DNA of 30,486 nucleotides from a virus: positions 1 through 30,486 of IMG/VR virus record IMGVR_UViG_3300017788_000116; one strand, given 5' to 3'. The position numbers were made by a program, and so were the translations under genes. The notes below the pieces were generated by a model, which had not been told where the DNA came from, did no database searches, and worked only from the letters and a program-made list of their open reading frames with translations. Below are positions 1,686 to 27,271 of this stretch, piece by piece (positions within the stretch are counted from its first letter, which is position 1; each line of letters starts with the position of its first letter).

Positions 1686-4600
1686 AGATCGTGATTGCAC
1701 TATGTACAATCTTAAATGTTGTGATTCCAGAGTAAGTTGGTTTTGCAGATAAAACTAGATTTGATCCACTGATATCAACGGAGAATGCAGCAAGTTGAAC
1801 TCCTGTTGTGACTTCATTGAACTGAGAAACATAAGAAGTTGTTCCGTCATGAACTGTTCCAAGTTCAATCATTTGATGAGTTGATCCAAGGCTGACTTGA
1901 ACTTGATACTTTGCACTTCTGAATGTCGTTGCAGACAGAGTGTGAATTCCAGTTGAAGAAGTTGTTGATAATGCAACGGAAGTAACTCCAATACCATTGA
2001 TATTGCGAATATTAATAACTGCAAGTGGATTTGTTGTTCCGACTGAGATGTTACCAGAAATATAAGCATCACCAGTTACTTGGAGTTTTTGATTAGATAC
2101 TCTTGTGGAAGTTGCAGAACCAACAACCAAAGTATCAACAAAAGTTGAAATGCCAGTTATATATGCACTTCCATTAATCGTAATACGATTTGAAGTAATT
2201 GTTGTGAAGTTTACAGGGTTTCTAAATGTAGCAATGCCTGTAACATCAAGAGAACCACAAAGAGTTGGGCCGAATTGAACTGATCCAATAGTCTTAATTG
2301 CACGATCTGGATCTGTCAATCCAATACCAATCTTATCGACAAGTAGAGTAAATGAATCTCTATCTGTACTGATCGGAGCAAATCTCTTCCAAGAATCAGT
2401 CCATACCCAACCTAAGAATTTTCCAGAATCAGGAACATCACGAAGAACAATATCACCTGATTGTCCAGTAGTGGTTGGTGTTGCAATTCCTACAGTAATT
2501 TCACTTGCATTATCAGATTCACCCTTAACTAAGAAACTATTTGACTCAATTTTATTTGTTGATGTAACTTTATTGGAGAACAAAACTGGGCCAGAGAACT
2601 CACTTCTGACAAGATTTCCAGATCCACCATCAACTCTAATACGATCTCGAATCGTAATATCATCAAAGATACCACTGAGTTTTCTCTCAGAAGTTGTTGT
2701 ACCATAATAATCAAAGATTGGAGCTTCAAGTGTTTCTTCTTGTGCAGTGTTTGAACTGAGTCTTCTATTACCAATGTAGAAGTCACCAGACTCATTCATA
2801 CCTGTGTAGACAACTACACCACCAGATTCAGCATTTCTTTGTGCAAGAAGTTGATCTTGAATTGTTAAGGCTTTAACTTGTCTTTGTGGAAGTGAAGTTG
2901 AGTAGTTACCTGGGCCAAATCCCATGTATTCAAATGAATGGTTTGATGCACGAACAAATGAAGGCCTTCTGAATTCTGATGGAATAACCTTAATTTTTCT
3001 AACTTCACTTCCAGATGTGTGAGTTGATGGTTTTGTACCCAATAAACCACGAAGAATTGAAACACTCGCAGAAGTTGGTTGATCAACTACTCTTACAATC
3101 TCCTCATCAAGTTGTAAGAAATCACCTTTATTGATCAGATTGTTAGTGGAGATTCCTGCAGAAGATGCGGTGACAGAAATATCTGCAGACAAGTAAACTG
3201 TAGTTCCATCATACAATGGAATCAGTCTCTTAGAAATGTTTTCGTTTGTAGAATCTGCATCGCCACCGTTGGCAGAAATATTACCTTTTACAATATATGA
3301 AGGGCCACTATATGATGGTAAAGATAATCCTGTTCCAAGTCTAACGGTAAATGTTGATATTCCTACTCTACTATCAACTAGATAAGTTCCATTAAAATGA
3401 GTTTGGGAAGTACCAATGATTGAGAATCCATTATTGACAAATAATCCATGAGATGTAGATCCAGTCGAAACCGTTGCAATACCACTTGTAGAATCATAAA
3501 CAATTGAAGTAATGCCAACAGCAAAGTCCGAAACGTATACAAAACCACCAGAAGTATAAGTTCCACCAGTTGTAGAAATCGCAACAGTAAACTGTTTGGG
3601 GCCTTTGATTGATGTAATCTTAAAGGTTCCATTATAGGGATTTGATTCACCACCAAATCCAGTTGTTGCAACTCCAACAACTTGAACTACCTTATCTACA
3701 TCATTGCGGATAACAGAAACTGTAAATGTTGCATTATTATTTCCTGCACCTAAAGTTGTAAGAGTTTCGCCAACAACGTAACCACTTCCAGAATCAACGA
3801 TTTCAAAAGTATTAATTGCACCACCAGATACTGTATTGATATTAATTGTTAATCCAGATCCTGTTCCAATTCCTGTTGAAACTAAACGAACGTTTCTTGT
3901 ATTGGCAGAGTATCCAGATCCACCAGAAGTCTTAGATAAAGAAAATACTGGATTTAATCTATGGGAGTTGGTTGTGAAAATTGTTGCAGCAGTACCAACA
4001 GAAGTCACATTTGTGATTCCAATTGCTACATTGGTTGACTCTAACAAATCAATAACCGTCTCTTTAGTGATGGAATTTCTTGCATCATTTAAAATAACTC
4101 TTCCAGTTGGATATCTTAAAGCAAAACTTCTAGATTGTTCTGGATCGGAAAGGTAGTTATCTCTATCTTGTTGTGGATAAAGATTTCTAACTGGTTGTTG
4201 ATATTTTTCACCACTGAAGTTTGAAGAGGAGGCCTCTACATTATTCTTGAGTAAGGTTAGATAGTAAATTCCATCTCTCTTATTTGGAGAGTGTTCTTGA
4301 ATAATTTCTCTTCTGAATACTGAGAAGATTCCTTTATATTCATTTCTAGAAACAACAGGAAGATTTCCATCTCTAACCGTTAGATCATTAGTAAATGAAC
4401 CTGGGTTATCACTTAAAGAAAACTTAAATGTCTTAGAATCATCAACAGAAGTAATTGTGTAGATTCCATTAAATCCATCATTATCCGTTCCAGTTGTGTT
4501 TAATCCACTCACAACTTTAGAAAGTTTTACTACATCACCAGATAAAAATCCATGTGGTTTTTCAGTTCTTACAGAAGCGATTCCAGAAGTCCAAGAAGCA

Positions 4601-7107
4601 TTTGCAATAATTTTTGGATTTCTTAAAGCATCAATACTTGCAATTGTTGCAGATTCATCTCCAGAGTTAATCGATACTGTGCTTGACTCTTGAAGAATAA
4701 ATCCATCTGAAGGTGGTTTTGCATCTTCAAATTCTTTTGGAATTACATATCGAACTCTATAAGTTCTATCAGTAATCGTTCTATCGTCAGATCTTCTCTT
4801 AAAGTAAGCAACTGGAGACTGTTCATTGAATACTGTGGTTCCAAGAGAAACCATATTGGTTCTAATTTCATTAGTAGAATTAGATTGCAAATACCACTGA
4901 GAATTGACAGTATCATACTGAATTGGGTGTCCAAATTCTCCAGGAATTTTATCAACTACACGACTAACAATTCTTAATTTTCCGCCATTTGATTGGACAT
5001 CATTAATTGGAATTGGAGTAGAAGCTGTTGCATTATTGAAGTTTTCAGCGAGTTTAATATGAGTTGAAACTCCCGTAGTAATTGCATAGTAAATTGATTC
5101 ATTCTCAATACCATCAGGAATATCACCATTTTCTGCAACAACAATCAGTTTTTCGCCCGATGTAAAATTGTGAGATTGAGTTAAAACAATAGTTTCATTA
5201 GCTAAAACTTCATTAATTCCAGTTCCTCTATAAACATTGAAAGACTTTTCTCTGGAAGTTGAAGAACTTCCTTGCATGTAAATTAGAGATGAGAATGTTG
5301 ATACAATTCCACTAATTGTGACGTTTACATAAAGTCTATCGTTTTGTCTTCCACCAATCTTATAAGAATCGATATTATATGGAGGGGCAATATCTGGATC
5401 AGAGTATCCTTCAATATAAAGTTTATCAGTGTATCCTACTCCAGCATTGATAATTTTGTTTGTGTCTAGACTTAACCAAGGAATATTTTGTTCTGGAGGA
5501 TTTGTCTCTTTGGGAGGAACAATGTGAGTAATATATCCAACATCATCTCTCGCAAATGCATCGTTTCTAAATCCAACTGCTTTTAATGAGTTAGCACCAA
5601 AGTTGGAGTTTGAGTTTGTAATTGACTGATCTCCACCAGATTCAGATACGAAATGATTTGCAAATCCAATCGCAAAAATAGATACGTTCTGAATATAAGC
5701 ATTATTAGAACTCTTAATGTGGAAGTTTCTATACTCTGGTTTGTATACAGCTTCTGGATCTACATGTAAAGATACTGATGATCCTAAGACTGTTTGATCT
5801 TGGTAGATTCCATTATTATATTTCAAGAAAGCATTATCATCTTTCTGTAATCCGATTCCAGTGTATTGAGCTAGAACAATACTTTTAAATCCAGTTGCTT
5901 TACTTCCATCTGCATGTAATCCGTTTATACCATAAACGGATCTCGTTGTCACATTGAAAATGTAAGGAGATGCAGATGAAACTGTATCAGATTCAACAAT
6001 AACCTTTGAGTTCGCAAGGAATGAAACGTTTGGAAGAACGTTTGATGGAATTGAACCAGCGTTATATGTAAATTGTTTTGTATTTGTATCAGAAACAGAA
6101 CTTACAACAAAAGATCCATTATAAACATTTGTATTAGTAGTAATTCCAATGATACGAATTGGAGTATCAACCGATAAATTATGATCTAGATTTGTAGTAA
6201 CTGTAATAACTGTTGTGCCAGTTACTCCATTTCCAGAACGAATTGATGTAATACCTAAGTCAGAAGATGCAACTTCACCAACAATTCTATATTCATCAAC
6301 CTTAGGTTCAAAGTCTGTAGAAGCTGGAAAGTCGGGAATAGATCTTCCAGATGGAATACCATAGGCTTGTGCAACTTTATAGTAATACATCTGAAGATCA
6401 GTTGTATCACTATTACCAACACCGACTACAGGATTTACACCATCAGCATACTCAAACGTAGTGAGTTTGTGGTGCGAAAAAGATGTAGAATTGCGAGTTT
6501 CATTGTAGTCTTTATAACAGAATCCATTTGGATCTGCATCAAAAATAGAAAAGGTTGAAATATAACATGCACCAGTAACTTTAAAAATTGCCGATCTTTC
6601 GATATTATCATCTTCTGGATCAGGAACAAATAAAGGCCTGATTTTAGTTTTACGGAGATCTAAACCAATCAGAGAAGTTCCTCTAGGAATAATTACACCA
6701 CCACCAACACTATTGAAAGTGTATAGAATGTTTGAAGAACTGTTTAAATCTAAGTTAGAACTTTCTAGAATACCAGTAGGAATATAACTACCGATTGTAT
6801 TACCATTTACATCTTTGTAAACTGCAGTTCCAGAACTATCATAAACACTATATCCTGGCCTGTTATCTACAATATGTTCTCCAGGATATAAAATAACAGT
6901 GGTTTTATCAAACTTATCATTACTTCCTCCAGAAAGATAAGAAAATCTTGATGCTTCAATTAAAGCTCTCTGAATTGTCTTAAAGGGCCTTGTTAAGGAA
7001 TTTCCTTGATTACTAATCGAATCTGTAGCATCAATGTCATTGGGATTTACATATAAAAGGTTCCCTTCAACATTCTTGATAAGATTTTCTAATCTACTAA
7101 GAGCCAT
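1684..7107 (-). CDS. Giant virion structural protein with beta-helix N-terminus (1807 aa)
   Basis: Residues about 18-60 hold a YVNPND...G.S.TRPFKTIQRAL pattern, typical of the start of pectate-lyase-like beta helices. A VIIPRGTSLIG and TGACYISTFSI region follows, which also fits a right-handed helix. The middle contains about four copies of a 60-70-residue module with the theme HGL..GD.V.I.G....NGTY.V.SV....F (near 6060-6220, 4400-4600, 3570-3980 and 3320-3490) and one GGSGY/GSGY module. The C-terminal part has GIGLTDPDRAIKTIG and SVGTTNPLAVINI, the same motif family as the next fibre gene. It is probably a baseplate-attached fibre or wedge-peripheral protein. It is far larger than any T4 baseplate protein, and I cannot assign a T4 gene number. 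A late promoter lies 31 bases upstream of its start. Confidence 0.85.
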   Translation of the reverse strand: MALSRLENLIKNVEGNLLYVNPNDIDATDSISNQGNSLTRPFKTIQRALIEASRFSYLSGGSNDKFDKTTVILYPGEHIVDNRPGYSVYDSSGTAVYKDVNGNTIGSYIPTGILESSNLDLNSSSNILYTFNSVGGGVIIPRGTSLIGLDLRKTKIRPLFVPDPEDDNIERSAIFKVTGACYISTFSIFDADPNGFCYKDYNETRNSTSFSHHKLTTFEYADGVNPVVGVGNSDTTDLQMYYYKVAQAYGIPSGRSIPDFPASTDFEPKVDEYRIVGEVASSDLGITSIRSGNGVTGTTVITVTTNLDHNLSVDTPIRIIGITTNTNVYNGSFVVSSVSDTNTKQFTYNAGSIPSNVLPNVSFLANSKVIVESDTVSSASPYIFNVTTRSVYGINGLHADGSKATGFKSIVLAQYTGIGLQKDDNAFLKYNNGIYQDQTVLGSSVSLHVDPEAVYKPEYRNFHIKSSNNAYIQNVSIFAIGFANHFVSESGGDQSITNSNSNFGANSLKAVGFRNDAFARDDVGYITHIVPPKETNPPEQNIPWLSLDTNKIINAGVGYTDKLYIEGYSDPDIAPPYNIDSYKIGGRQNDRLYVNVTISGIVSTFSSLIYMQGSSSTSREKSFNVYRGTGINEVLANETIVLTQSHNFTSGEKLIVVAENGDIPDGIENESIYYAITTGVSTHIKLAENFNNATASTPIPINDVQSNGGKLRIVSRVVDKIPGEFGHPIQYDTVNSQWYLQSNSTNEIRTNMVSLGTTVFNEQSPVAYFKRRSDDRTITDRTYRVRYVIPKEFEDAKPPSDGFILQESSTVSINSGDESATIASIDALRNPKIIANASWTSGIASVRTEKPHGFLSGDVVKLSKVVSGLNTTGTDNDGFNGIYTITSVDDSKTFKFSLSDNPGSFTNDLTVRDGNLPVVSRNEYKGIFSVFRREIIQEHSPNKRDGIYYLTLLKNNVEASSSNFSGEKYQQPVRNLYPQQDRDNYLSDPEQSRSFALRYPTGRVILNDARNSITKETVIDLLESTNVAIGITNVTSVGTAATIFTTNSHRLNPVFSLSKTSGGSGYSANTRNVRLVSTGIGTGSGLTININTVSGGAINTFEIVDSGSGYVVGETLTTLGAGNNNATFTVSVIRNDVDKVVQVVGVATTGFGGESNPYNGTFKITSIKGPKQFTVAISTTGGTYTSGGFVYVSDFAVGITSIVYDSTSGIATVSTGSTSHGLFVNNGFSIIGTSQTHFNGTYLVDSRVGISTFTVRLGTGLSLPSYSGPSYIVKGNISANGGDADSTNENISKRLIPLYDGTTVYLSADISVTASSAGISTNNLINKGDFLQLDEEIVRVVDQPTSASVSILRGLLGTKPSTHTSGSEVRKIKVIPSEFRRPSFVRASNHSFEYMGFGPGNYSTSLPQRQVKALTIQDQLLAQRNAESGGVVVYTGMNESGDFYIGNRRLSSNTAQEETLEAPIFDYYGTTTSERKLSGIFDDITIRDRIRVDGGSGNLVRSEFSGPVLFSNKVTSTNKIESNSFLVKGESDNASEITVGIATPTTTGQSGDIVLRDVPDSGKFLGWVWTDSWKRFAPISTDRDSFTLLVDKIGIGLTDPDRAIKTIGSVQFGPTLCGSLDVTGIATFRNPVNFTTITSNRITINGSAYITGISTFVDTLVVGSATSTRVSNQKLQVTGDAYISGNISVGTTNPLAVINIRNINGIGVTSVALSTTSSTGIHTLSATTFRSAKYQVQVSLGSTHQMIELGTVHDGTTSYVSQFNEVTTGVQLAAFSVDISGSNLVLSAKPTYSGITTFKIVHSAITI

Positions 7108-10326: not shown

Positions 10327-10908
10327 TTATACTCCAAATACATTCGATAAAGTTTTTTGAATATTTACAATTTGTGTGAACAGTGATCCACTGTAAAGAT
10401 CTGTAGCGCAAGATGAATTAATGAACCCAGAAACACTATCTAGATAATTCTTTCCAATTAAACTAATTGAATGAGTTCCCGTAATTGCAGTTTTTGTTCC
10501 CTTGATTTGAATATCAGGAGCTTTAATTTGAACAGAAACGTTTGCACCAAGAAATATACTACCTTTCTTATCTTTTTTACTACCAGAAGCTTTGATAACT
10601 ACTTGTTCAGCATCAAGAATAATCGATCCAGTTTGTGCTTGCAAAAGAATATCACCTTTTGAAGCTTTGATTACTTTAGCTGGATTGAAAGGATTTTCAC
10701 TATTTGTATTAACTTTAAGATTTGCGCCAACAACTTCTAGAGAAGTTCCACCAGTTTTAAGAATTTGTCTTCCTTTGGAATAGAACTTAATGCCGTCACC
10801 TTCTCTAGTTTCCATACCCCACATGATTTTACCGTGAGGTTTCTCTTCACCACCACCGTGCATAGAGAAAGTTTCTCTACTTAAATTAAAGTACTCTTGG
10901 TTTGCCAT
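10327..10908 (-). CDS. Baseplate spike beta-helix protein, gp5 C-terminal-like
   Basis: The 193-aa product has repeated short beta strands of alternating hydrophobic residues, as in GDILLQAQTGSIILDAEQVV and VQIKAPDIQIKGTKTAITG. This pattern is typical of the triple-stranded beta-helix needle that forms the C-terminal third of T4 gp5 and of VgrG proteins. Here it is encoded as a separate gene directly after the gp5-like gene, with the stop of gp5 and the start of this ORF sharing position 10908. It probably trimerises beneath the hub to make the membrane-piercing needle. A role as a standalone spike is inferred from fold pattern and order, not proven. Confidence 0.75.
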   Translation of the reverse strand: MANQEYFNLSRETFSMHGGGEEKPHGKIMWGMETREGDGIKFYSKGRQILKTGGTSLEVVGANLKVNTNSENPFNPAKVIKASKGDILLQAQTGSIILDAEQVVIKASGSKKDKKGSIFLGANVSVQIKAPDIQIKGTKTAITGTHSISLIGKNYLDSVSGFINSSCATDLYSGSLFTQIVNIQKTLSNVFGV

Positions 10909-12968
10909 TATTTTCTAACACAATCGATGACTGTTATTGGGCCAGTTGAATCTGGATCAACAGGTTTTCCACCACGATATCTCATGATTGGAATTAACAC
11001 TGCACCCTCTCCAGTTGAAGTATTTATTTGAATAGTTGGTTTGCATCCACAGAAAATTTCTGAGGTTTTAACTTTGACTTTAATTATACCATTAATCGGC
11101 CCAGTTACAATTTCCATAACTGTAGCTTTACTTGGTTTCCCATCACAGTTTAGAACTGTGATTGTATCTGTAGAAGCATAGTTGAATCCTGTTTTTTTAA
11201 CGTAAACATCAAAAATAAATCCACATTTTGTTTTTGGATTTACACCAGTATCATCTCCACCAGTGCCGCCTCCACCAGTGCCGCCTCCACCAGTGCCGCC
11301 TCCACCAGTATCATCTCCACCAGTGCCGCCTCCACCAGTGCCGCCTCCACCAGTATCATCTCCACCATCAGATCCATCAGTGTAACCACTTCCACCATCA
11401 TCAACAATTACATCAGTTACAATTCCTCCATCCTCATCAATGATGGCGATTAAATTTCCACCACTACCATCACAATTATCTTCAACAGAAACAAAAGGAG
11501 AATCTACATATCCAGATCCACCATTTGTAACATCAGCGCCAATGATCCCACCATCTGCAGCATCAACTAAAAGGGTAGCAGCAGCACCAAAGCCACCACC
11601 TCCACTAAAGACGATTTTGGAACTACAAATTAAAGTATTATCACATTCACCAAAATCTTCTGATCCAAGATTGTCTAGAACTGCTCCCCAATCATCAAAT
11701 GTGGTAAATTTAACACCCTCTCCAGGATCCCAAGTGGATGGTGTCGGACAAGGAACAACGTCACAACTTGAAATAAAATTTAAAACAATTCCAGCATACT
11801 CAAGAGCTTGAGAAACCACGCTTCCAATTGAACCAAGGGCCCCACCAATTACATCATTAATCTGAGATAAAATTGGAGAAAGATTTTCATCAATCCAATT
11901 ACTAATTTCATTAAAAATAGTGCTTAAGATATTGTCAACTGTACATTTTACAACATCAAATAATTTATTGATCAATCCAAAAAGAACTTCTAAAATTAAA
12001 TCAAGAAGAAGATCTAAAAGTTTTTCAAACAAACACCAAATCAAATCCATGATTGTTCTGGTTGCTTGTCCAGTCTCAGGATGCAGTGATTTGGGGATAA
12101 TTGTTCCTACAAAAGTATTAACGGCTGTTCCAACTTTTGAGAGAACAAAGTCTCTTGCCTTGGTGATTAATCCACTAATCACTCCCAACATCTTTTTAGC
12201 AAGAATCTTAATTTCACTATCAAGATTTACGATCTCTTGTAGAACTGGATCAATATACAATTCTTGGAATTGTTGAATCTGCCTCATGCGATTCATAAAT
12301 TCCGTTATGAATTTAGTAATCCTTGAGACATCATCATTGCCACAGGGATTTGGTGTGGTAATTGGATCTAATGTTGGTTGAACAAAAGCAGCAGAAGCTT
12401 TTGTTTTGCCTGGAATTGGAACACCATTTTTTGTAGGTTTTTCTGGAGTTCCAGCATCAGTTTCTTCACCTGTTGCAAGATTTTTACCACCACTTTGTTC
12501 ATCTCCTTTTTGTTTAACAAGATGAAGATTTGTTCCTTCTTTTTTGGGATTATATGGTTTAAAAGAATAACTTTCTCCTTCAGCAAGAGACTTGGCTTTC
12601 TGAAATGTTTGTCTATAAAAAGATCCAAAAATAACTGGTTGTTGACAATCATCTCCATCCATGAAGAAACCAAGAACAGTTTCCCCACCTTGAATGTTGT
12701 GCAGATCGCCAACACCATTCATACCAGAGCCCTGTCCAGTTGGAACTAGAACATGAGCCCAAGGAAGATCTTCATCATTTAAATCTGGCGGTGGTGGGTG
12801 ATATCCAAGAATTCTAACTTTAACACGATAATATTGACAGTCTTCTTTTTCCTCAAGTGTTGCAGTTTTACTCCATCCACTTGAAGTTGGATCAGCTACT
12901 TGTCCAAGCCACCACTTAAAACCATCTCTACCAATAAAGTTACTTGGAAAAAAAGACTGTTCAATCAT
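10908..12968 (-). CDS. gp5: Baseplate hub protein gp5-like, without lysozyme domain (686 aa)
   Basis: The N-terminal 120 residues resemble the gp5 OB-fold: IGRDGFKWWLGQVADP, YYRVKVRILGYH, then LPWAHVLVPTGQ and GETVLGFFMDGDDCQQPVIF. A helical, hydrophobic central part (residues about 215-400) follows. Next come GGSGY-type beta repeats (TNGGSGY and DDGGSGY), a low-complexity Gly/Asp/Thr stretch of GGGGT and GGDDT units, and a beta-rich C-terminus. T4 gp5 carries a lysozyme domain between its OB-fold and needle. I see no lysozyme motif here, and the needle and wall hydrolases are separate neighbouring genes. The gene overlaps the 72-aa gene upstream by eight bases. It should form the central hub under the gp27-like ring. 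Confidence 0.85.
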   Translation of the reverse strand: MIEQSFFPSNFIGRDGFKWWLGQVADPTSSGWSKTATLEEKEDCQYYRVKVRILGYHPPPPDLNDEDLPWAHVLVPTGQGSGMNGVGDLHNIQGGETVLGFFMDGDDCQQPVIFGSFYRQTFQKAKSLAEGESYSFKPYNPKKEGTNLHLVKQKGDEQSGGKNLATGEETDAGTPEKPTKNGVPIPGKTKASAAFVQPTLDPITTPNPCGNDDVSRITKFITEFMNRMRQIQQFQELYIDPVLQEIVNLDSEIKILAKKMLGVISGLITKARDFVLSKVGTAVNTFVGTIIPKSLHPETGQATRTIMDLIWCLFEKLLDLLLDLILEVLFGLINKLFDVVKCTVDNILSTIFNEISNWIDENLSPILSQINDVIGGALGSIGSVVSQALEYAGIVLNFISSCDVVPCPTPSTWDPGEGVKFTTFDDWGAVLDNLGSEDFGECDNTLICSSKIVFSGGGGFGAAATLLVDAADGGIIGADVTNGGSGYVDSPFVSVEDNCDGSGGNLIAIIDEDGGIVTDVIVDDGGSGYTDGSDGGDDTGGGGTGGGGTGGDDTGGGGTGGGGTGGGGTGGDDTGVNPKTKCGFIFDVYVKKTGFNYASTDTITVLNCDGKPSKATVMEIVTGPINGIIKVKVKTSEIFCGCKPTIQINTSTGEGAVLIPIMRYRGGKPVDPDSTGPITVIDCVRK
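11242..11361. repeat. 15-bp minisatellite, eight units, inside gp5
   Basis: Eight tandem 15-bp units run from 11242 to 11361. Two unit types occur on the plus strand, ccaccagtatcatct (A, first base changed in the first copy) and ccaccagtgccgcct (B), in the order A-B-B-B-A-B-B-A. On the coding strand they give GGDDT and GGGGT. The length is a multiple of three, so unit gain or loss would keep the gp5 frame. The stretch probably works as a flexible linker. Confidence 0.95.
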
Positions 12969-14471: not shown

Positions 14472-15473
14472 TTACTTCGTAGATGCTAATTGGAGAACGG
14501 ATAAGTAGTTGGATTGAACAGATCCTTTACCTCCAGAAGAAATTTGAGTTCCTTGTGACTGTTGTGATGGTTGTTGAATTGGAGAAGAAACTGCAGCAAC
14601 CTGTTGTTGAGTTTGTTGGGGTTTTAAAGCTTGTTGTTGGGGTAATTGTGGTTTAGGTTTTGTTTCATCTTTAGATGTACTAAAAGGAGCATTCATACTA
14701 TATCTATTCAATGGATCAAATTTATTCTTCAAAACTCCACCTGTCCAACTAGTTCCTGTTTCCCAATGTAAGTGAGGGCCAGTTACTCTTCCAGTTGTGC
14801 CAACTCGAGCAATGATGTCTCCCTTTTTAATATCTCCCTTACCCCTGTATCCATCTTGAACATGTCCATAAAGATGGTATATTCCCTTATTATCTACAAA
14901 TACAACAAAATTTCCCCAGCCTCCTGGATTAACTCCAGCATCAATAATTTTTCCATCAGAAATTGCCCTGAGTGGAGTTCCATCTGGAACAGCAAGATCC
15001 GTACCACCATGAGCACCAGTTTTTCTCTGTTCACCATATCTACCAGTGATAACGGGAGTAATTGAACCAGGAGCAACATATTCAATAGCCGCTACACCAA
15101 CACCTAAACCAGCAACTCCCAATCCAGCACCAGTTATAGCTTCTCTCAAAGTCGAAGGTTCCATATTCTCAAAAAGTTCTTCTAGATCTTTTTCCATCTT
15201 ATTTCGTTCTTCAATAAGAGCAACAATAATTTGTTGATAAGTTGCATTTTCTTGTTTCAATCCCAACATTTCCTCCATAATACCTGGAGGGATCATTTGT
15301 TCCGATTGTCTAACAGATAAACTTGATACAAGTTCATTAAGTTGTTCATTATTTTTTTTCTCAGATTCGATATAATTCTTACTAAATTTTGAAAGATTTT
15401 CTATTGTCCTTCCCAAAATAGGAGTCAATTTTTCTACATTTGAACTTAACTTTTGAACCTGTTCTATAGACAT
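14472..15473 (-). CDS. Virion protein with M23 metallopeptidase domain (333 aa)
   Basis: Residues 1-110 are helical and coiled-coil-like. Residues 114-132 are a Gly-rich hydrophobic stretch that might touch a membrane. Residues 144-255 form an M23 (LytM-type) endopeptidase domain. It has the zinc motif HGGTD (H155, D159), LYGH (H204) and PHLHWE (H234 and H236), so all catalytic and zinc ligands are present. The Gln/Pro-rich tail is probably flexible. M23 enzymes cleave peptide cross-links in peptidoglycan, fitting local wall digestion during DNA entry. It lies between the transglycosylase-domain gene and gp27, in the position of T4 hub genes. Domain identity is firm. Attachment to the hub is inferred. 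Confidence 0.88.
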   Translation of the reverse strand: MSIEQVQKLSSNVEKLTPILGRTIENLSKFSKNYIESEKKNNEQLNELVSSLSVRQSEQMIPPGIMEEMLGLKQENATYQQIIVALIEERNKMEKDLEELFENMEPSTLREAITGAGLGVAGLGVGVAAIEYVAPGSITPVITGRYGEQRKTGAHGGTDLAVPDGTPLRAISDGKIIDAGVNPGGWGNFVVFVDNKGIYHLYGHVQDGYRGKGDIKKGDIIARVGTTGRVTGPHLHWETGTSWTGGVLKNKFDPLNRYSMNAPFSTSKDETKPKPQLPQQQALKPQQTQQQVAAVSSPIQQPSQQSQGTQISSGGKGSVQSNYLSVLQLASTK

Positions 15474-25770: not shown

Positions 25771-25805
25771 TAAAAAACCTCTGGGTTTATTCTATCCCAG
25801 AGGTT
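25771..25805 (-). terminator. Intrinsic terminator before thyX
   Basis: On the minus strand ACCTCTGGG and CCCAGAGGT pair perfectly around a ten-base loop (25777-25785 and 25796-25804; one more A-T pair is possible), followed by a run of Ts (25772-25777). It ends transcripts from the 472-aa head-protein gene. The T run stops nine bases before the thyX ATG. Confidence 0.88.
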
Positions 25806-25820
25806 GTATTTTGTCAAGGT

Positions 25821-27239
25821 TTATTTTCTAGATCCTCTTCCACCACCCATTCCACCGCCAGCTGGTTTGTATCCAGTAGTAGAACCTACAAGTTTAGGGC
25901 CTACAATTTTGGGCCCTACAAGGTTTTGAGATCCCTTAACTCCAAGTGCTTGTTGACGTTTGATATCACTTGCAGCAGCCTTCTGGAGATCTTTTGCTTT
26001 TGCAGCTGCATCCGACTTTGCATATGCACCAGGATTAAATGTTCTACCAATTCTTTCAAAAGGATTTGTAGTTCCAGTTCCAGGAGCATCCGATCTCTTA
26101 TAAACTGCTTTACCTCCCTTAAATGCAAGATGCCCAACTTCAGACTTACCAGTTGTAGGATCTTTAACTACTGATGTCTTGGCAAGTTGAACGGTTTTTC
26201 TTTGTTTCCCCACACCTGTTGACATAAACCCAGTTCCATCTTTTGCTTTACTGAAGGTAGTCTTACCACCAATACCAGTCAGTGCTCCACCAGCCTGGCG
26301 TTGACGATTTTTAACTTGATCTGCCTTTAGTTCTTGTGGTGTCTTTCCAGCAACAGTATCAAATGCCTTACCAGCAGCACCTGATCCAGCCATATATCCA
26401 CCAATACCACCAATAACAGTTCCAACACCAGGAAGAATTGCTGTTCCTAAAGCTGCACCTGCTGATGCACCAGCTAATCCACCAGCAGTTTCAGTAGCAC
26501 CACCAGCAATAGATCTTTTCCAAGATTGCCCCTGAGATTTTCTATTCCAAGTCCTGAGTCCAACATCAACAGGAACAGCAGCCTTAGAAGCAAAACTTCC
26601 CACTCCCTTTAAAGCACCTAAAGCTTTGGTTCCTCCAGGAACTTTAGTCGCTCCAGCTTTAATAGCACCTTTTAACTTTGAAGCTTGAGAACCAATCTTC
26701 CTATTCATTTTTAAGTTTGCTGCCTGAACATTTCTAACTCCAGGAACTCTTTGCAATCCTTTATTTAAAACATTACCTGTTGCAGTTCCAGCAGCAGTAG
26801 GAGCATTAGTAACTTTTCCCGCAACATTCTTTACACTTGATCCAAAGTTTTTTAGAGACTGTTTTACTCCAGTTGGAGCATTTGGTTGCCCAGGAATAGT
26901 TGTATTGGGGCCAGTAAATCCTGAACTAGATGAAGGTTGAACTGAGGGTTTTGGTTTTAGACTAGGTGAAGGTTGAGATGAAACAGGATTTCTAGGATTA
27001 CCTTTTTTACCAAACTTACCTCTCCGAAGAGGAACAATTTTATTAGAAGCTTCTTCTTCAAGATACTCTTCTAACCATAAAATATTATATAAGTCTTCTT
27101 CGTCTAAACTTTCAACTACTAGAAATCTTTCAACCTCACTCAACTCTTCATAGAAGAAGTCAAATAAATCAACAGCTTCATTTAAGTTGAGTGGTGCTTT
27201 GTCTTCTGCTTCAGCAAAAAAGTAATTAAAAGTCTTCAT
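25821..27239 (-). CDS. Probable internal head protein with capsid-targeting N-terminus (472 aa)
   Basis: The first residues MKTFNYFFAEAEDKA closely match the capsid-targeting sequence of T4 internal proteins (MKTYQEFIAEA), which is cut by the gp21 prohead protease after L/I-x-E. A fitting site LNE occurs at residues 19-21. The next 70 residues are acidic and helical, and the rest is basic and Gly/Ala/Lys-rich (LKGAIKAGATKVPGGTKALG). Residues around 255-300 form a Gly-zipper hydrophobic stretch (GASAGAALGTAILPGVGTVI), as in proteins that enter membranes. It is likely packaged in the head and perhaps ejected with DNA. It has its own late octamer and terminator. A virion location is inferred. 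Confidence 0.75.
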   Translation of the reverse strand: MKTFNYFFAEAEDKAPLNLNEAVDLFDFFYEELSEVERFLVVESLDEEDLYNILWLEEYLEEEASNKIVPLRRGKFGKKGNPRNPVSSQPSPSLKPKPSVQPSSSSGFTGPNTTIPGQPNAPTGVKQSLKNFGSSVKNVAGKVTNAPTAAGTATGNVLNKGLQRVPGVRNVQAANLKMNRKIGSQASKLKGAIKAGATKVPGGTKALGALKGVGSFASKAAVPVDVGLRTWNRKSQGQSWKRSIAGGATETAGGLAGASAGAALGTAILPGVGTVIGGIGGYMAGSGAAGKAFDTVAGKTPQELKADQVKNRQRQAGGALTGIGGKTTFSKAKDGTGFMSTGVGKQRKTVQLAKTSVVKDPTTGKSEVGHLAFKGGKAVYKRSDAPGTGTTNPFERIGRTFNPGAYAKSDAAAKAKDLQKAAASDIKRQQALGVKGSQNLVGPKIVGPKLVGSTTGYKPAGGGMGGGRGSRK

Positions 27240-27263: not shown

Positions 27264-27271
27264 TATTTATT
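27264..27271 (-). promoter_or_regulatory. Late promoter octamer AATAAATA before the head-protein gene
   Basis: The minus strand reads AGAATAAATAATAAG about 25 bases before the ATG at 27239. It differs from TATAAATA at the first base. The TAA stop of the upstream small gene (27267-27269) lies inside the octamer. Confidence 0.5.

Follow-up and report, generated by a model that had tools for sequence, protein, structure and literature searches.

The locus and its expression signals

The window analysed here, one strand of 30,486 nucleotides of viral DNA (IMG/VR record IMGVR_UViG_3300017788_000116), is a 30-kb fragment without the gp21/gp22 region. On its minus strand it carries gene P0001 (25821..27239 including the stop codon), which encodes a 472-residue protein and has a stop codon directly before its ATG. 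An earlier, sequence-only reading had set this gene apart as a unit with a late octamer and a terminator of its own, and both signals are indeed there. The late-promoter octamer AATAAATA lies on the minus strand at 27264..27271, 32 bases before the ATG, and in all 16 homologous genes checked (16/16) a late octamer is found between -25 and -34, compared with 3% of random 60-mers. A strong intrinsic terminator, composed of a 10-bp stem, a 10-nt loop and T6, follows 3' of the gene at about 25771..25805 (minus strand); the 70-base stretch folds at -20.1 kcal/mol, the stem is also present in L005, L006 and DSL-LC02, and our consensus scan missed the structure because its loop is too long for that scan. 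Late expression of the gene, as predicted from sequence, seems to us almost certain. A sigma-70-like promoter (TTGACA-17-TAGAAT, 25789..25817, minus strand; a consensus match only) overlaps the terminator and probably serves the downstream thyX gene.

Elsewhere in the window, positions 10908-12968 encode a baseplate/tail-cluster protein that contains a lengthy tract of GGGTGG-type repeats, and the tail hub cluster includes a protein (14472-15473) in which an M23-type peptidase domain can apparently be recognized by eye.

The N-terminal tag and the predicted gp21 site

The 472-residue protein begins with MKTFNYFFAEA (residues 1-11; 27207..27239, minus strand), which shares 7 of 11 residues with the peptide MKTYQEFIAEA of T4 IPII and IPIII, as read from NC_000866. 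When 9,215 ten-residue stretches from proteins of the window were compared with the T4 peptide, no other matched it equally well; the resemblance to the T4 internal-protein targeting peptide proposed earlier holds. In the IPIII peptide of T4, the residues important for targeting are 4 and 7, and those important for cleavage are 8 and 10 (PMC9026906). At these positions our protein has F4, F7, F8 and E10, the first two thus coinciding with the T4 targeting residues. Its residues 8-10 read FAE, and a predicted cut after residue 10 would be non-canonical because residue 8 is neither L nor I. A canonical [LI]xE motif does occur further on, as LNE followed by A, at residues 19-21 (27177..27185, minus strand), the position originally given for it. 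That gp21 cuts here is plausible. T4 IPI shares the layout: as read from the T4 record, its targeting half is MKTFKEF, in which positions 4 and 7 are aromatic, and its canonical site is ITE|A at 17-19. Of the 18 homologues, 14 have a canonical LxE in the interval from residue 11 to residue 21. The nearest complete genome, DSL-LC02, encodes gp21, gp22 and gp23, all of which contain [LI]xE sites close to the N-terminus. Judged from sequence, removal of the tag by gp21 is a prediction that we hold with good confidence.

The body of the protein

Four further segments can be delimited, all on the minus strand: an acidic helical segment (residues 22-66; 27042..27176), a basic low-complexity linker (67-235; 26535..27041), a Gly/Ala-rich hydrophobic hairpin, predicted to be helical and of glycine-zipper-like character (236-298; 26346..26534), and a conserved C-terminal region (299-435; 25935..26345) with a predicted beta-meander at residues 327-382. 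The body had been described as basic, which is true of residues 67-472 (pI 11.2) and of everything after residue 21 (pI 10.3), whereas residues 1-66, on which that description is silent, make up a strongly acidic stretch (pI 4.05). The Gly/Ala-rich stretch could be located at about residues 243-298, and the glycine zipper attributed to it survives in part: zipper-spaced glycines in the protein are not more numerous than in shuffles (p about 0.3), but 6 of the 8 most conserved glycines of the hairpin (253, 257, 261, 265, 281 and 285) are in i+4 register.

Confidence in the AlphaFold model is low (pLDDT 49, with 70-78 in parts of the beta-meander), and the idea of a membrane hairpin is therefore based on sequence and on structural matches with Z below 8. 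SlyB and TraT are outer-membrane proteins with glycine zippers. They are among the hairpin's best structural neighbours (Z 5.9 for SlyB, 5.1 and 4.7 for TraT, all obtained with a low-confidence model), and an unrelated membrane protein shares first place, so we treat the likeness as suggestive only. Pfam yielded no ADP-ribosyltransferase (ART) family match for an ART catalytic domain in the protein; one sub-threshold Pfam match was set aside as driven by composition.

Homologues

A first tblastn search with the 472-residue protein returned just four phage records, and the family as finally assembled has 18 members including the window's own (DSL-LC02, DSL-LC03, S-SRM01 and the IMG/VR loci L005-L007 and L141-L150). 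The homologues in DSL-LC02 and DSL-LC03 lie in the same gene neighbourhood as in the window. All 18 carry the tag at residues 1-11, and in a 14-row alignment M1, K2, F4 and E10 are invariant, F4 in 14 of 14 rows, while F7 is kept in 13. The mean majority-residue fraction in the same alignment is 0.78 for residues 1-11, drops to 0.35 for 12-60 and 0.29 for 61-215, and rises again to 0.62 for 216-300 and 0.70 for 301-435. Residues 12-215 can scarcely be aligned among homologues; the protein's middle part changes fast while the tag persists. One locus, L007, has two tandem tagged copies, at 3001-3561 (truncated, 186 aa) and 3634-4872, an arrangement that recalls the clustered internal-protein genes of T4.

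The sister protein in L005, 89% identical overall, contains an insert, TYHGTSETG...GKGVYTTPDKDVASKYA, near the start of the basic linker. The insert resembles the PARP/ADP-ribosyltransferase signature, matches Pfam PARP weakly (E 0.007) and, in a one-to-one hhalign comparison, aligns with stand-alone tagged proteins such as L073 at E 0.0004. The L073 family itself reaches Pfam PARP at E 0.002 at best, in one member, and its structure model is poor, with no significant fold match. For the insert we found no matching phage record. As far as its sequence goes, it is PARP-like and may represent a candidate effector module.

Tagged proteins in other viruses and in virions

A comparison of such N-termini across cyanophage proteins had been suggested. 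A DNA pattern for MKTF..F[LF].EA occurs at no fewer than 120 IMG/VR loci, counted over contigs without host assignment, and a rearranged control pattern at none; the tag's occurrence exceeds chance. Among the matches listed, 117 tagged proteins were long enough to cluster by BLAST, and they form about 51 unrelated families. Pfam names returned for ten family representatives, again among the matches listed, included ADPrib_exo_Tox (5.6e-9), GNAT acetyltransferase, methyltransferase, glucosaminidase, lytic transglycosylase, and nucleotidyltransferase with a zeta-toxin-like kinase. In L067, L114 and their relatives the tagged protein is a cytidylyltransferase-like domain fused to a zeta-toxin-like kinase domain. 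A late octamer stands within 60 bases upstream of 43/100 tagged open reading frames versus 253/1248 others at the same loci (p=7e-7, among the matches listed). A gp21-type protease is encoded by 11 of the 19 long tag-bearing contigs checked, and Gp23 by 10 of those 11.

Published virion proteomes connect the tag with particles. For S-CREM2, whose 52 MS-detected virion proteins are reported in PMC10665884, a strict tag motif occurs in 4/219 coding sequences, all four of them detected in virions (Fisher p=0.003): a SAM hydrolase (MKDFDSFLEE), gp13 (MKDLHSFLTE), an APH-like kinase (MKRFDAFLTE, GTG start) and a cytidylyltransferase (MKNFSSFLTEA). Shuffled N-termini give 0.03 matches on average. 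The strict motif had been defined once the first few of these proteins were already seen, and S-SZBM1 was for this reason used as an independent test. There the outcome (PMC9146016) is mixed: the strictly tagged small proteins gp191 and gp192 are absent from the 30 detected virion proteins, and the cytidylyltransferase, whose tag is one residue shorter (MRFRQFIIEA, a loose match), is among them. The virion-detected Cas9-like gp12 of S-CREM2 (OR473000, 7704-10313) has a tag-like RFASFMAEA internally, at residues 18-26.

The cytidylyltransferase T4-GC190 has also been detected in S-SM1 virions (PMC3037559). It is tagged in S-SM1 (MKKFSAFLNEA), S-SM2, Syn33, P-SSM7, S-SCSM2R and DSL-LC02; its homologue in the jumbo phage RaK2 has no tag. 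The cytidylyltransferase annotated in S-PM2 (AJ630128, 103632-104804) is likewise without one, in agreement with the report that S-PM2 virions lack the enzyme, although its gene there seems to be joined to a piece of its neighbour, the T4-GC71 gene. In their available portions, none of the three proteome papers mentions the tag.

Discussion

Our preferred reading places the 472-residue protein in a class of CTS-tagged internal head proteins of T4-like cyanophages. We consider it likely, as a whole, that it is an internal head protein of a T4-type freshwater cyanophage, targeted to the core by its capsid-targeting sequence (CTS), cut by gp21 and ejected with the DNA. The sequence of events would be as follows. 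The protein would be made late, and its N-terminal tag would bind the prohead core, so that it is built into the head. The tag would then be cut off by the phage gp21 protease; the likelier site is after LNE-21, in the manner of T4 IPI, and the alternative is after residue 10. The basic body would pack with the DNA and leave with it into the host, where the glycine-zipper hairpin may insert into a membrane. It would there hold in place or carry along the C-terminal region that is conserved, together with an effector-like insert in some relatives.

These steps do not all stand equally firm. Head targeting is very probable, supported by the tag in 18/18 homologues, by its presence in some 51 families and by its occurrence on MS-confirmed virion proteins of S-CREM2 and S-SM1; the packing in the head that was originally proposed is thereby well supported, if indirectly. 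Ejection with the DNA appears reasonably probable, and insertion of the hairpin into a host membrane is a tentative suggestion. The length of the protein, more than twice that of T4 IPIII (193 aa), was counted against the internal-head-protein reading, as were the mixed outcome in S-SZBM1, the phenylalanine at residue 8 and the low quality of the structure model.

Three other explanations can perceivably be offered. First, the protein might enter the head by its tag and, as is possible for IPIII, help the core to assemble or the DNA to condense, with no ejection and no role at a membrane. A basic body of pI 11.2 would suit such a function, the acidic N-terminal segment could bind the core, and T4 IPIII is known to affect head assembly (PMC9026906). 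However, this account leaves aside the hydrophobic hairpin, which is conserved and has its glycines at i+4 spacing, and the PARP-like insert of L005, and the fast-changing middle of the protein is more effector-like than scaffold-like; we regard it as somewhat unlikely. Second, a tape-measure-like or tail-lysin-like tail protein is called up by PHROG matches to a tail-associated lysin (E 2e-7) and a tape measure (E 6e-6), but these cover the Ala/Gly/Lys-rich middle, as composition would produce, and were set aside as such; moreover, the gene lies outside the tail cluster and no S-CREM2 protein with a tail annotation has the tag, which makes a tail function very improbable. Third, a late membrane-active protein of the producing cell, holin-like or acting in superinfection exclusion and with an N-terminus similar by chance, would accord with the late octamer, the hydrophobic hairpin and the resemblance to the surface-exclusion protein TraT, at Z 5.1 only, yet it has very little to recommend it given a tag kept in every homologue and shared by many unrelated soluble enzymes (some of them found in virions), and a rearranged control pattern without a single match.

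Returning to the internal-head-protein reading, we lean, with some reserve, towards a broader proposal, namely that the T4 capsid-targeting peptide serves as an all-purpose address for loading, used by some fifty or more unrelated families in cyanophages and other aquatic T4-like viruses, whose virions would inject a large set of swappable effectors. The candidates would include an ADP-ribosyltransferase, an acetyltransferase, a methyltransferase, peptidoglycan enzymes, nucleotidyltransferases and others, with the window's protein as a membrane-inserting member whose relatives are able to carry an effector module. An earlier suggestion is that the CTS may enable T4-like phages to load a variety of proteins (PMC9026906). 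In the non-subscription literature that we searched, no account of the tag being widely used in cyanophages came up; the terms "capsid targeting sequence" and "cyanophage" co-occur there in one paper, which has the second term only in its reference list. Enzymes have been reported in cyanophage virions in papers that leave the route of entry unstated, and a peptide address would explain how they are packaged. A tag that can be read would make the injected proteins of aquatic T4-like phages predictable from sequence alone. It would also allow direct tests of how hosts are taken over by phages that rank among the most abundant in water.

Comparison with known systems

The closest parallels are IPI, IPII and IPIII of T4, which like the 472-residue protein combine an MKT[YF]..F peptide, an [LI]xE motif and a basic character with a gene outside the main head cluster. 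In layout our protein resembles IPI, positions 4 and 7 being aromatic and the canonical site lying beyond residue 11. Outside the tag we saw no similarity to T4, and, unlike the T4 proteins, this one occurs in cyanophages and has an acidic segment, a glycine-zipper hairpin and a C-terminal region that is conserved in the family.

A second parallel is Alt, the ADP-ribosyltransferase that T4 packages in its head and ejects: the sister L005 has a PARP-like insert, and L090, another tagged protein, matches Pfam ADPrib_exo_Tox. The 472-residue protein itself has no recognizable ART domain. According to a 2010 review, cyanomyoviruses have no homologues of alt, modA and modB (PMC2984593). The S-CREM2 SAM hydrolase, APH-like kinase and cytidylyltransferase share the N-terminal tag and are MS-detected in virions; they differ in being enzymes, while our protein has no recognizable catalytic domain.

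Finally, phage polyvalent proteins and MuF-fused packaged effectors also comprise effector-like modules thought to be injected with the DNA. Packaged ARTs were deduced from MuF fusions and gene context in PMC9503650, a paper in which the words "cyanophage" and "Synechococcus" do not occur. Effectors of the polyvalent and MuF kind were deduced from fusion to MuF or portal domains or from their gene neighbourhood, whereas for the protein described here the signal is a short peptide tag.
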